Shown: piece by piece, positions 3,960-41,381 of the stretch
How the letters are laid out: the number at the start of each line of letters is the position of its first letter
Position numbering within the stretch: the first letter of the stretch is position 1
Source of the DNA: Thiorhodospira sibirica ATCC 700588
Lineage (GTDB): Bacteria > Pseudomonadota > Gammaproteobacteria > Ectothiorhodospirales > Ectothiorhodospiraceae
DNA length: 55,270 bases
Assembly (NCBI RefSeq): GCF_000227725.2
Contig: NZ_MU255056.1
Location: 593,171 to 648,440, forward strand
Reading direction: 5' to 3'
The notes under the pieces: model-generated
Database searches by the model: none
The model's input: the letters and a program-made list of their open reading frames with translations, nothing else
What the model was told of the DNA's origin: nothing
Translations under genes and position numbers: made by a program

Positions 3960-4718
3960 TTAGGGGGTGGTGTTTTGGGGGTGCCATTGAATGGATTGAA
4001 TTTCGAGCACCACGCGCTCGCCATTTTCGATTTGTTCAACCCGCACCGGGATGTAGTGCAAGTCTGGGGCAAACCAGATGCTGACGGTCATGTCGCGTTG
4101 TTTGTTGTAGCGTTGCACTTCGATGGCCTCCAGTTCGCCCAGTGCGGTGCGGATGGTACGGGCACCGGCAAGGGTGAAGTCGTAGGTGACGATGCGGTTG
4201 CGATCGACGAGGGTGCGAGAGATCTGGCGTTGTTGGCTGATGATGTCGTTGATTAAGGCGATTTGCAGGGCAAAGCGGTCTACCATGCCGTCTTTGAGCG
4301 TCAAACTGAAGGGGCGTCCGCGATGCATGCCACTGACCTGGTAGCGTTGCCAATCAAAGTGTGCCTCGGTGAGGCGGTCGCGGCGGCTGCTGCGGTGATG
4401 GTACCGATAGCTTTCAGAGCGCAGTCCGTGCGGGGTGATGCGAATCGTGGTGCGTTCGGTGATTTCATCATCACGCACTCGTGCCAGCATTCCGGCGGGG
4501 CGTAGATCGGCTTGATAGTGCAGCCGGTCACCGTCGCGTCGCAGGGTGATTTCCCCCACCACGGCCATGCCCATACGTTGGGCGCGATAGTGTGCGGTAT
4601 AGTCGGGGGGGATGTAGGGGGCAGCGGCAAGGGGTAGCGTCCACCCCAGCAGCAACAGCCCGGTGATGAGCCATGTGCTGTTGACAAAGCGGGGGCGGTG
4701 GTGACGAAGCGGATACAT
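3960..4718 (-). CDS. DUF3108 family exported protein
   Basis: A 252-residue protein starting at ATG 4718, which has GAGGAG eight bases upstream; an earlier in-frame ATG at 4880 would run into the pump gene and lacks a good site. Residues ~13-33 form a hydrophobic signal sequence ending in LAAA. The remainder is the beta-rich DUF3108 pattern: YTAHYRAQRMGMAVVGE near the start, then a middle segment with YDF and a late segment DMTVSIWFAPDLHYIPVRVE. The family is periplasmic or outer-membrane associated and of unknown biochemical role. It lies ~100 bases downstream of the RND pump gene on the same strand and may share its transcript. Confidence 0.82.
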   Translation of the reverse strand: MYPLRHHRPRFVNSTWLITGLLLLGWTLPLAAAPYIPPDYTAHYRAQRMGMAVVGEITLRRDGDRLHYQADLRPAGMLARVRDDEITERTTIRITPHGLRSESYRYHHRSSRRDRLTEAHFDWQRYQVSGMHRGRPFSLTLKDGMVDRFALQIALINDIISQQRQISRTLVDRNRIVTYDFTLAGARTIRTALGELEAIEVQRYNKQRDMTVSIWFAPDLHYIPVRVEQIENGERVVLEIQSIQWHPQNTTP

Positions 4719-37248: not shown

Positions 37249-38253
<1,005 letters not shown>

Positions 38254-38886
38254 TTAACGCGAGTGGCCGATAATATCGGTGGTGGCGGGTGCATTGAAAT
38301 GAAAGGCATCGTGCGCAAAGTCGGGGTTGGCAACGAACTGGTCAAAGCGGATACGGGTTTGCTGTTCAAAATGGTCAAACAGCACCATGGCCCGCACATA
38401 GCGCTCGTCCATACCGATCAGGACGCGGCTGAAATCGCTGTCCTGGCTGCGGGGGCTGAGTTCAATCCAGCTCAAGCCCTCATGTTCGCCAAACGGCTGT
38501 ACGTAAAAATCCCGCTCAATCGGGCGAGATTCCGACAGCAGCAAAATCGGGGCGCTGTCCCAGAGTTGCTCCATCGGCTGTACGGTGGCCTGTGCCAGAT
38601 CTGCGTCATAGGTCCAGAGGTGTTCACCATCGGAGAGAATCAGTTGACGGTAGGGGGTGTGATAATCCCAGCGAAACCGCCCCGGACGCTGTACCTTGAC
38701 CTGTCCATGCGCCACTTGCAGGACTTCATTGTCATCATTGACCACGTTTTGGGTAAATTGGGCCTCAAAGGCGGCGACCTCATGGAGAAACTGCTCTAGC
38801 CTTTGTTGAATGTCATCAGCCAGCAATAGCCCCGGCAGGCCCCAAAAAAACCATATACCCACACAGTATTGACTTAGTTTGCGCAT
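38254..38886 (-). CDS. lolA: Outer-membrane lipoprotein carrier LolA
   Basis: Periplasmic chaperone that ferries lipoproteins from LolCDE to LolB. The 210-residue precursor has a hydrophobic signal peptide ending LLLA before DDIQQRL. Family features are FEAQFTQNVV, VQRPGRFRWDYHTPYRQLILSDGEHLWTYDADL and the C-terminal FDHFEQQTRIRFDQF. It follows ftsK by 86 bases, the common ftsK-lolA arrangement. rarA, often next, is replaced by trxB. Confidence 0.95.
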   Translation of the reverse strand: MRKLSQYCVGIWFFWGLPGLLLADDIQQRLEQFLHEVAAFEAQFTQNVVNDDNEVLQVAHGQVKVQRPGRFRWDYHTPYRQLILSDGEHLWTYDADLAQATVQPMEQLWDSAPILLLSESRPIERDFYVQPFGEHEGLSWIELSPRSQDSDFSRVLIGMDERYVRAMVLFDHFEQQTRIRFDQFVANPDFAHDAFHFNAPATTDIIGHSR

Positions 38887-38972
38887 TATCTGGGATGACC
38901 TCGGATATCAATCAGTGGCGGATGGGCCGTTTATTATATGGTGCATGTGCTATGGTGAGGTTTGGCACCACC

Positions 38973-41381
38973 TTAAACATCATCGACAATGCCAGAGACA
39001 TACTCAGGATCACCCTGGCTTTTGATGAACGCGGTCACGGCCTGTATCTCATGTTCGGCCACAAAGGCACCGTGAACCCGACGAGGTGGGCGCCCACCCG
39101 GCGAAAGATAGAGCATATCACCACAGCCCAAAAGCTGCTCTGCGCCGTTGCGATCAAGGATATTGCGCGAATCCACCCGGGCCGATACTTTCAGGGCAAT
39201 CCGGTTGGGGATGTGCGCCTTGATGGCCTGGGTAATCACATGCATGGTCGGGCGCTGGGTGGACAGCATCAGATGCACACCCGCTGCACGGGCCTTTTGT
39301 GACAGGCGCACAATCAAATCTTCCACTTCCTTGCCGCCTAGCACCATCATGTCCGCCAGTTCATTGATGGTGATGACGATATATGGCAGCGGCTTTTGGG
39401 TTGCGCTGCTGCCATCGGCATTCAAGGGGGCATCCGGATCATCCAGTTCCACACCGCGATGCTGCGCCTTGCGCAGGATTTCGTTATATTCGGCAAGATT
39501 ACGCACACCCTGCTTGGCGACCAGTTGATAGCGCCGCTCAACCTCCTGAATGCACCAGCGCAGCGCGGCAGTGGCATTGTCCATATCGGTGACCAGGGGG
39601 ATCAGCAGATGCGGCAGATCCTTATAGGCTGCGAGTTCGGAAAGCTTGGTATCAATCAGGATCAGCCGCAGATCAGCCGGTGTGGCTTTGAATAAAAGCC
39701 CCATCAGCATGGCATGAATGGCCACCGATTTGCCCGAGCCACGCGCACCTGCCATCAATAGATGGGGCATGCGGGCCATATCGGCGGTCATCACCCGTCC
39801 GGTGGCATCCTTGCCCAGGGCCAGGGTTAACGGCTCCCTGCCGCGTTGGTAGGTATCACTTTGCAAGATTTCGGCAAGCAGGATGGCCTCACGGATTTCG
39901 TTGGGGACTTCCAGCACCAGTTTGCTGAACGGCAGTATCGGCTCAATGATACGCACCGCATCAACGGCCAAAGCCTCTGCCAGCGGAACCGCCAGCTCTG
40001 CTAACGAGACGCGGGTAGATGTGGCCAGCGATAATTCAAAATGGGTGACCACCGGCCCCATGCAGACATCATCGACCGTCACATTGAGGCCTAAATGGAC
40101 GAAGGCCAGCTCGACCTGCTGCGATAAAGCTTGAAGATTTTCCTTGGCATGGCCTTTCTCGCGCACCGGCACGGTATCCAGCAGCGTAAGGCTCGGGCGC
40201 TTATAGTTTTTGGTCTTGGGCAGCAAGGGCTGTGGTGGCTCCAGCGGTGCCTGCGCGAGTGGCGGTAGCTGCGGCGCGGCTTTAGCAGCCCGGGGCGTCG
40301 GCAGAGGATCAAGCAAGGGCGGCAGGGGTGTTTTGCCGTATGCCGAAGCCCCGGATGGCATGGGCTCAATGGGCTGCAACATCTCATGATCCCGCCCTTC
40401 CATCAGCGATGGCGACAGTTCTGTCGGAGCCTCGGTGGTTTTTGCATCCAGAGAAAAGGGCCTAAAAGGCGGTGGCGCGGTGACGGTGCCTTGTTGCACA
40501 AACATGGGAATCACCGGCTCAATGCGCTGTCCTTTGCGGCTGGCCGTTTCTGCCGCTGAAGCCTCGGGCGGCGTCGGCGTATCGGGCAAGGGCTCATCCT
40601 CGGCAGCACTGAAGATGGGCGCGGGCTTTGCGTCGGCGCGATGGGGTGGATTGTTCCGAGGCGGGGCGTCAAATAGCGCATCATCCGGATGAATAGGCGG
40701 CGGGGCGGGCCGGGCCTTGGGTTCTGGCAAAAAGCGCAGGCACTGCGCACCCAGGCGATCCATGAGCTGCAACCAGGAAAATTGCAAAAGCCAGGTCAAG
40801 CCCAGCAAAAACACGGCCAGCAGTACGAGCGTGGCACCATCCAGCCCTAACAGCGCGGCACTGAGATCCCCAAACACTTGCCCAAGGATACCACCGGCGC
40901 TGATGGGCAGATTACCGGGCAGAAAATGCAGGGCTGCCAACATGCAACCGCTCAGCAACAGCAATGCAAGTCCCAGCATCCGCAGCCAGAGACGCTGCAA
41001 ACTCAGCGCAGCATCTTTGGTGCGCTGTCGGTGTTTTCTGCGGCGCGAGACCAGCCAGGCGGCATACATCACCACCGCCGGCGCCAAATACGCAAGATAG
41101 CCCACCAGGAACAAGGAGAAATCAGCCAGCCATGCGCCAAAACGCCCGCCCCAGTTGGCCACAGCGAGATTGCTGCCGGTGTGTGACCAGCCCGGATCCG
41201 TGGGCTGGTAACTGAACAGGATGATCAGCAAATACACGGCAAGCGCGGCGGCCAGCAAGAGCACACCATCGTGCATCGCCTGCAGCACCGGCTTGATCCA
41301 ACGCTGAACGGCACGCGCCTTGCTCAATTCATGCCAGGCCTGTGACAGTGCGTTGCTTTTTTTTGGAGTCGCTTGTGTCAA
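38973..41381 (-). CDS. ftsK: FtsK-type DNA translocase, atypical: altered Walker B and no gamma domain
   Basis: FtsK anchors at the septum and pumps chromosome ends to activate XerCD. This 802-residue protein has four N-terminal membrane helices (about residues 38-175), a Pro-rich linker (~230-400) and the translocase motor with DVCMGPVVTHFEL. Walker A is GARGSGKS with Lys551. The Walker B segment reads IVITINELADMM, so Asn673 (codon AAT, 39363-39365) stands where nearly all family members have Asp. The protein stops right after SQGDPEYVSGIVDDV; the ~65-residue winged-helix gamma domain that reads KOPS and contacts XerD is absent, and only 86 bases separate it from lolA. The locus (ftsK-lolA) is the normal one. 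It may be a specialised or decayed FtsK with another copy elsewhere. Confidence 0.9.
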   Translation of the reverse strand: MTQATPKKSNALSQAWHELSKARAVQRWIKPVLQAMHDGVLLLAAALAVYLLIILFSYQPTDPGWSHTGSNLAVANWGGRFGAWLADFSLFLVGYLAYLAPAVVMYAAWLVSRRRKHRQRTKDAALSLQRLWLRMLGLALLLLSGCMLAALHFLPGNLPISAGGILGQVFGDLSAALLGLDGATLVLLAVFLLGLTWLLQFSWLQLMDRLGAQCLRFLPEPKARPAPPPIHPDDALFDAPPRNNPPHRADAKPAPIFSAAEDEPLPDTPTPPEASAAETASRKGQRIEPVIPMFVQQGTVTAPPPFRPFSLDAKTTEAPTELSPSLMEGRDHEMLQPIEPMPSGASAYGKTPLPPLLDPLPTPRAAKAAPQLPPLAQAPLEPPQPLLPKTKNYKRPSLTLLDTVPVREKGHAKENLQALSQQVELAFVHLGLNVTVDDVCMGPVVTHFELSLATSTRVSLAELAVPLAEALAVDAVRIIEPILPFSKLVLEVPNEIREAILLAEILQSDTYQRGREPLTLALGKDATGRVMTADMARMPHLLMAGARGSGKSVAIHAMLMGLLFKATPADLRLILIDTKLSELAAYKDLPHLLIPLVTDMDNATAALRWCIQEVERRYQLVAKQGVRNLAEYNEILRKAQHRGVELDDPDAPLNADGSSATQKPLPYIVITINELADMMVLGGKEVEDLIVRLSQKARAAGVHLMLSTQRPTMHVITQAIKAHIPNRIALKVSARVDSRNILDRNGAEQLLGCGDMLYLSPGGRPPRRVHGAFVAEHEIQAVTAFIKSQGDPEYVSGIVDDV

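Follow-up and report, generated by a model that had tools for sequence, protein, structure and literature searches.

FtsK combines two jobs, the assembly of the divisome and the pumping of DNA. In E. coli the N-terminal domain is the essential part of the protein, and Sivanathan and colleagues have described an ATPase-mutant allele, ftsK[WalkerB], that carries D1121N, as well as a delta-gamma allele that lacks residues 1248-1329 (PMC2680272). All four ftsK alleles grew in Muk+ conditions, and ftsK[WalkerB] was inviable on MukF withdrawal, an outcome that the authors ascribe to lost translocation (PMC2680272). In 2009 dif and Xer were reported to be absent from 12% of proteobacterial species, some of them with large genomes, and the question was raised of how bacteria without XerCD resolve chromosome dimers (PMC2731167). 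The Legionellales use XerL, and the role of FtsK in that system is stated to be undetermined (PMC9765430).

The ftsK gene of Thiorhodospira sibirica ATCC 700588 resembles a natural D1121N delta-gamma double mutant. It was studied in a stretch of 55,270 nucleotides (the window; Table 1), where the order trxB-ftsK-lolA is that of E. coli and the gene upstream of ftsK is unrelated. Its product shares with the FtsK proteins of E. coli and P. aeruginosa this genomic context, the 4TM domain, the linker, the alpha domain, the RecA-like motor, Walker A and the arginine finger; it differs from them in having no gamma domain, Asn in place of D1121, no XerCD to activate, and changes at 45 of 173 near-invariant motor positions. 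The best match in the PDB is P. aeruginosa FtsK (2iuu, E 3e-122), and at about 50% identity to the solved FtsK the fold is not in doubt. The membrane domain retains 31 of 37 near-invariant positions. The gene starts with TTG at 41381, two codons after an in-frame stop; the ATG that lies close upstream belongs to another frame.

Table 1. Features of the ftsK locus and of the recombinase gene (positions are those of the window unless a contig is named)
Feature	Position	Strand	Remarks
ftsK	38973..41381	-	802 aa; 4TM, linker, alpha and RecA-like motor, without gamma
FtsK_4TM membrane domain	40749..41276	-	residues 36-211; PF13491, 149.8 bits
FtsK alpha domain	39900..40196	-	residues 396-494; PF17854, 55.8 bits; strongly diverged
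FtsK_SpoIIIE motor domain	39249..39878	-	residues 502-711; PF01580, 194.6 bits
Walker A GARGSGKS	39726..39749	-	GTTGSGKS in relatives; Lys and Ser retained
Walker B Asp codon	39363..39365	-	AAT, Asn673; column of E. coli D1121; Glu674 retained
Stop codon TAA	38973..38975	-	last residue V802 aligns with E. coli S1250
ftsK-lolA gap	38887..38972		86 bp; without gamma remnant
lolA	38254..38886	-	ordinary evolutionary rate
trxB	37249..38202	-	ordinary evolutionary rate; neighbour of ftsK as in E. coli
Cre/TnpS-like tyrosine recombinase	L041:3261-4427 = G000:C4:2208260-2209426	-	sole one in the genome; beside lolCD

An earlier note, made by reading the letters of the window, had claimed that this FtsK lacks the gamma domain and that the Walker B Asp is replaced by Asn, and both claims are borne out. 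Pfam finds no FtsK_gamma in the product, though FtsK_4TM, FtsK_alpha and FtsK_SpoIIIE are all matched; the point at which the protein ends in the alignment with E. coli means that gamma is absent, and since the gap before lolA is too short for a gamma domain, there is no room for one there. No gamma-like peptide was found in the flanks of ftsK, this gap included. The Walker B stretch reads INELADMM, against VDEFADMM in P. aeruginosa, so that the Asp-Glu pair has become Asn673-Glu674; in Walker A, K551 aligns with E. coli K997. Thus, of the features of the FtsK translocase group, the protein has the 4TM and alpha domains, the motor fold and the Walker A Lys and Ser, and is without gamma and the Walker B Asp-Glu pair. 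Could these features have arisen by sequencing or assembly error? In favour of error, the scaffold of the assembly has gaps in other places. The window is free of N, and the frame is open along its full length to the stop. The motor differs at more than 40 positions and not at a single one, the space before lolA cannot hold gamma, and XerC, XerD and dif are missing too; we give error a negligible chance.

The state of the motor is a matter of degree. Among the residues of P. aeruginosa FtsK named in PMC7321959, the arginine finger R620 is retained and the basic DNA-contact and pore residues R632, K643, K657 and R661 are retained or replaced by Arg; S634, V635 and G640 of the DNA loop have become Thr, Met and Gln. 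The earlier note had described the rest of the motor as intact, which is right for Walker A and the arginine finger and wrong for the domain at large, where only 128 of the 173 near-invariant positions are retained. Its suggestion that the motor may be weakened fits the comparison with E. coli, in which the same change, D1121N, defines the ATPase-mutant allele (PMC2680272): the motor is probably weakened or dead. Judged by that allele, the ATPase would be dead, and FtsK probably no longer pumps DNA. With Walker A, the arginine finger, the catalytic Glu and the basic DNA contacts retained or conservatively replaced, the protein may still bind some ATP or move slowly along DNA without direction.

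One might go further and suppose that FtsK keeps a working pump, with Asn allowing some magnesium binding and sequence-blind translocation clearing septal DNA. The retention of Walker A, the catalytic Glu, the arginine finger and the pore residues is what such a pump would need, and E. coli muk cells benefit from sequence-blind translocation (PMC2680272). However, D1121N acts as a loss-of-translocation allele in E. coli (PMC2680272), and the three DNA-loop substitutions also tell against a pump, which we judge improbable. The open frame and RecA-like fold, which have not decayed to a pseudogene, imply some retained role for the motor domain, perhaps a structural one in oligomerisation or DNA binding. 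The E. coli alleles show the identical residue change and a nearly identical truncation point, and since each is tolerated there, the natural gene combines two tolerated alleles; it differs from the laboratory alleles in being natural, in carrying both changes together with many more, and in standing in a genome without XerCD and dif.

T. sibirica is an exception within its family. Neither Asn673 nor the early stop is common to its relatives: the Walker B Asp is invariant in E. coli and in all 29 relatives aligned (24 within the family and five from families elsewhere in the class), gamma is present in 34 of 36 same-family genomes, and every one of these 36 has an XerD match of at least 289 bits. 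Of the two same-family genomes without gamma, one is 81% complete and has no FtsK match, and the other has an FtsK match over the membrane part only. The motor of T. sibirica FtsK is 56-58% identical to those of same-family relatives, which are 80-91% identical among themselves; the corresponding values are 43-46% against 71-84% for the alpha domain and 45-51% against 49-83% for the membrane domain. Other genes have kept an ordinary pace: identities to relatives, against those among relatives, are 80% and 85% for TrxB, 73% and 68% against 71% for DapF, 87% and 88% for HslV, and 55% and 59% for LolA, so that, among the genes tested, the acceleration is particular to ftsK. DUF484, the neighbour of the lost xerC, is somewhat low (53% against 70%). 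With ftsK evolving so fast in its neighbourhood, the argument that an otherwise intact motor speaks against decay is weak, all the more so as other families with the same loss, described below, carry the decay of the motor further, as far as the loss of Walker A.

The genome (3.2 Mb, 98% complete, with no other member of its genus in the comparison set) is a scaffold assembly with gaps, in which two short contigs read as N. The assembly holds one FtsK. A second FtsK, which the earlier note had offered as a candidate to do the job, was not found; the weaker motor matches were identified as HerA_C (702.8 bits) and a T2SSE/PilT-type ATPase, and the candidate was rejected. No gamma domain occurs in any frame of the genome. 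Nor is there an XerD left to be activated in some different way, as the same note had proposed: neither XerC nor XerD was found in the genome (best match 21 bits), and a scan of this genome alone gave no dif site within 3 mismatches of the gammaproteobacterial consensus, so that XerC, XerD and a recognisable dif are all gone. Relatives carry xerC after dapF-DUF484 and xerD next to dsbC. In T. sibirica the dapF-DUF484 junction is free of N and runs into another gene without xerC, hslVU likewise lacks xerC, and dsbC stands without its xerD neighbour; the sole N gap near dsbC falls inside a transposase gene. One transposase gene is broken by a 100-N gap in both L095:11520-12134 and L096:5760-6386, which indicates that the assembly gaps fall in repeated insertion sequences.

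RecA (70% identical to that of E. coli) and RuvC are encoded in the genome, so that chromosome dimers should still form, and a loss of homologous recombination, which we had considered, is rejected. A linear chromosome was considered as a possible reason for the loss of dimer resolution; no terminal inverted repeats were seen at the contig ends, the main contig being a gapped scaffold. The orientation of KOPS (GGGNAGGG) was uninformative, because the octamer is not clearly skewed in gamma-bearing relatives either. A 20-kb stretch (G000:C4:1960001-1980000) has a GC skew of -0.211, far outside the other stretches sampled.

Enzymes of the Cre/TnpS type resolve dimers or cointegrates of plasmids and transposons, and dimer resolution systems with a single recombinase exist (XerS, XerH and XerL). 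The only tyrosine recombinase of any kind in the T. sibirica genome is of this type. This stand-alone protein is about 340-389 aa long, the likelier start being an ATG near 4283 (L041), which would give about 341 aa; it matches Cre in the PDB (E 6e-7), its catalytic Arg, Lys, His-x-x-Arg, His and Tyr appear by eye to be intact, and it shares 39% identity with plasmid recombinases whose genes diverge from one for a DNA-binding protein in a TnpS/TnpT-like arrangement. It is a plausible candidate for a replacement of XerCD, and one can imagine that it took over dimer resolution at a site of its own without FtsK, removing the need for XerCD, dif and gamma alike. Its catalytic residues, its kinship with Cre and TnpS, the single-recombinase precedents and the reported ability of Cre/loxP, when placed at the E. 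coli terminus, to do the work of XerCD/dif (PMC2731167) would suit that role. Against it, KilA-N- and HNH-like genes lie nearby, so that the gene may be a remnant of a mobile element, and no candidate recombination site was found beside it. We consider such a takeover possible but unlikely. The dif/XerL system of the Legionellales offers a parallel in that canonical XerCD/dif has been lost and RecA kept; there, however, a replacement recombinase and its site are proven (PMC9765430), whereas T. sibirica has only this candidate.

The same set of losses recurs in two other families. Gamma is present in 356 of 377 genomes drawn evenly from the class, and among 18 gamma-less genomes examined a full-length gamma-less FtsK is found in eight, which belong to three families: T. 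sibirica, five genomes of a family here called f31, and two (G199 and G396) of another, f58. All eight lack both XerC and XerD, and in all eight the Walker B Asp is absent and the Glu retained; the column holds Asn in T. sibirica and G199, Ser in G396, and Ser, Ala, Gln, Pro and Ser in f31. The Asp is present in each of 33 gamma-bearing FtsKs inspected. In Fisher tests, in which related genomes are counted separately, gamma is associated with the Asp at 1e-8 and with XerCD at 2e-6, and the eight genomes are not eight independent events but perhaps three.

With gamma, the Asp and XerCD missing throughout, the cases differ in how far the motor has gone. G199 is otherwise nearly intact (157 of 173 near-invariant motor positions retained); G396, with 128 as in T. 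sibirica, no longer has the Arg of loop II or either basic residue of loop I; and in the f31 genomes (97-109 retained) Walker A is destroyed in all five and Tyr or Phe stands in place of the loop II Arg. That no gamma-less FtsK of the eight keeps the Asp, and that five have lost Walker A as well, also counts against a working undirected pump. The normal pattern of conservation is inverted among the f31 proteins, which share 64-76% identity with one another in the membrane domain and 45-56% in the motor. We infer from gene content that f31 is Beggiatoaceae; Legionellaceae was rejected, since methanol dehydrogenase, phasin, a sulfide-quinone-reductase-like protein and filamentous haemagglutinins point to Beggiatoaceae. 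In a further genome, of 1.1 Mb and with no Xer match, the membrane part of ftsK is open and the motor region holds several stop codons (G377:C6:125536-127478); this is a further stage of the same loss. The gamma-less genomes that have XerD are not counter-examples, since their FtsK match is absent or cut by a contig end. Three genomes (G040, G052 and G056) have a gamma-bearing FtsK with the Asp and no convincing XerC or XerD, which tells us that XerCD loss does not force gamma loss; they may use single recombinases of an unfamiliar kind.

The full-length FtsK tree places T. sibirica with f31 (support 0.988), as it might if the gene had been acquired from another lineage with a motor-dead FtsK and not altered in place. 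These are, however, the longest branches, for which attraction is expected, and we put the grouping down to them because similarity is higher to T. sibirica's own family (motor 52-54%, membrane part up to 54%) than to f31 (40-44% and 36-43%). The retained order trxB-ftsK-lolA is a further point against acquisition, which we consider very improbable.

We favour, at a probability of roughly three in four, the reading that FtsK lost gamma and the Walker B Asp after the loss of XerCD/dif, and that it has since served chiefly as a divisome component in the membrane, with its motor under relaxed selection. A comparison of living genomes suggests the order: chromosome-dimer resolution by XerC, XerD and dif would have been lost from the lineage first, gamma (which reads KOPS and activates XerD) and the Walker B Asp would have followed, and Walker A would be the last of the series to go. 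We infer that what remains to FtsK is its role in division; selection for that role would maintain the membrane part, leaving a divisome membrane protein with a disused motor. A more sweeping version holds that XerCD/dif loss repeatedly turns FtsK into a motor-dead scaffold, that gamma and the Asp always go before Walker A, and that here a domesticated Cre/TnpS-like recombinase resolves dimers without FtsK; as a whole we find it doubtful. In the literature searched, the coverage of which is incomplete, we found no earlier publication that connects the loss of XerCD with a gamma-less, motor-dead FtsK.

Laboratory alleles of E. coli can separate the two jobs of FtsK; a wider question is whether free bacteria can live without the pump. 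In T. sibirica evolution appears to have run the D1121N delta-gamma experiment in a genome of 3.2 Mb that has RecA, and the parallel cases make up a series of stages of decay. With such a natural series at hand, the separability of the two roles of FtsK is directly testable with these natural motors.
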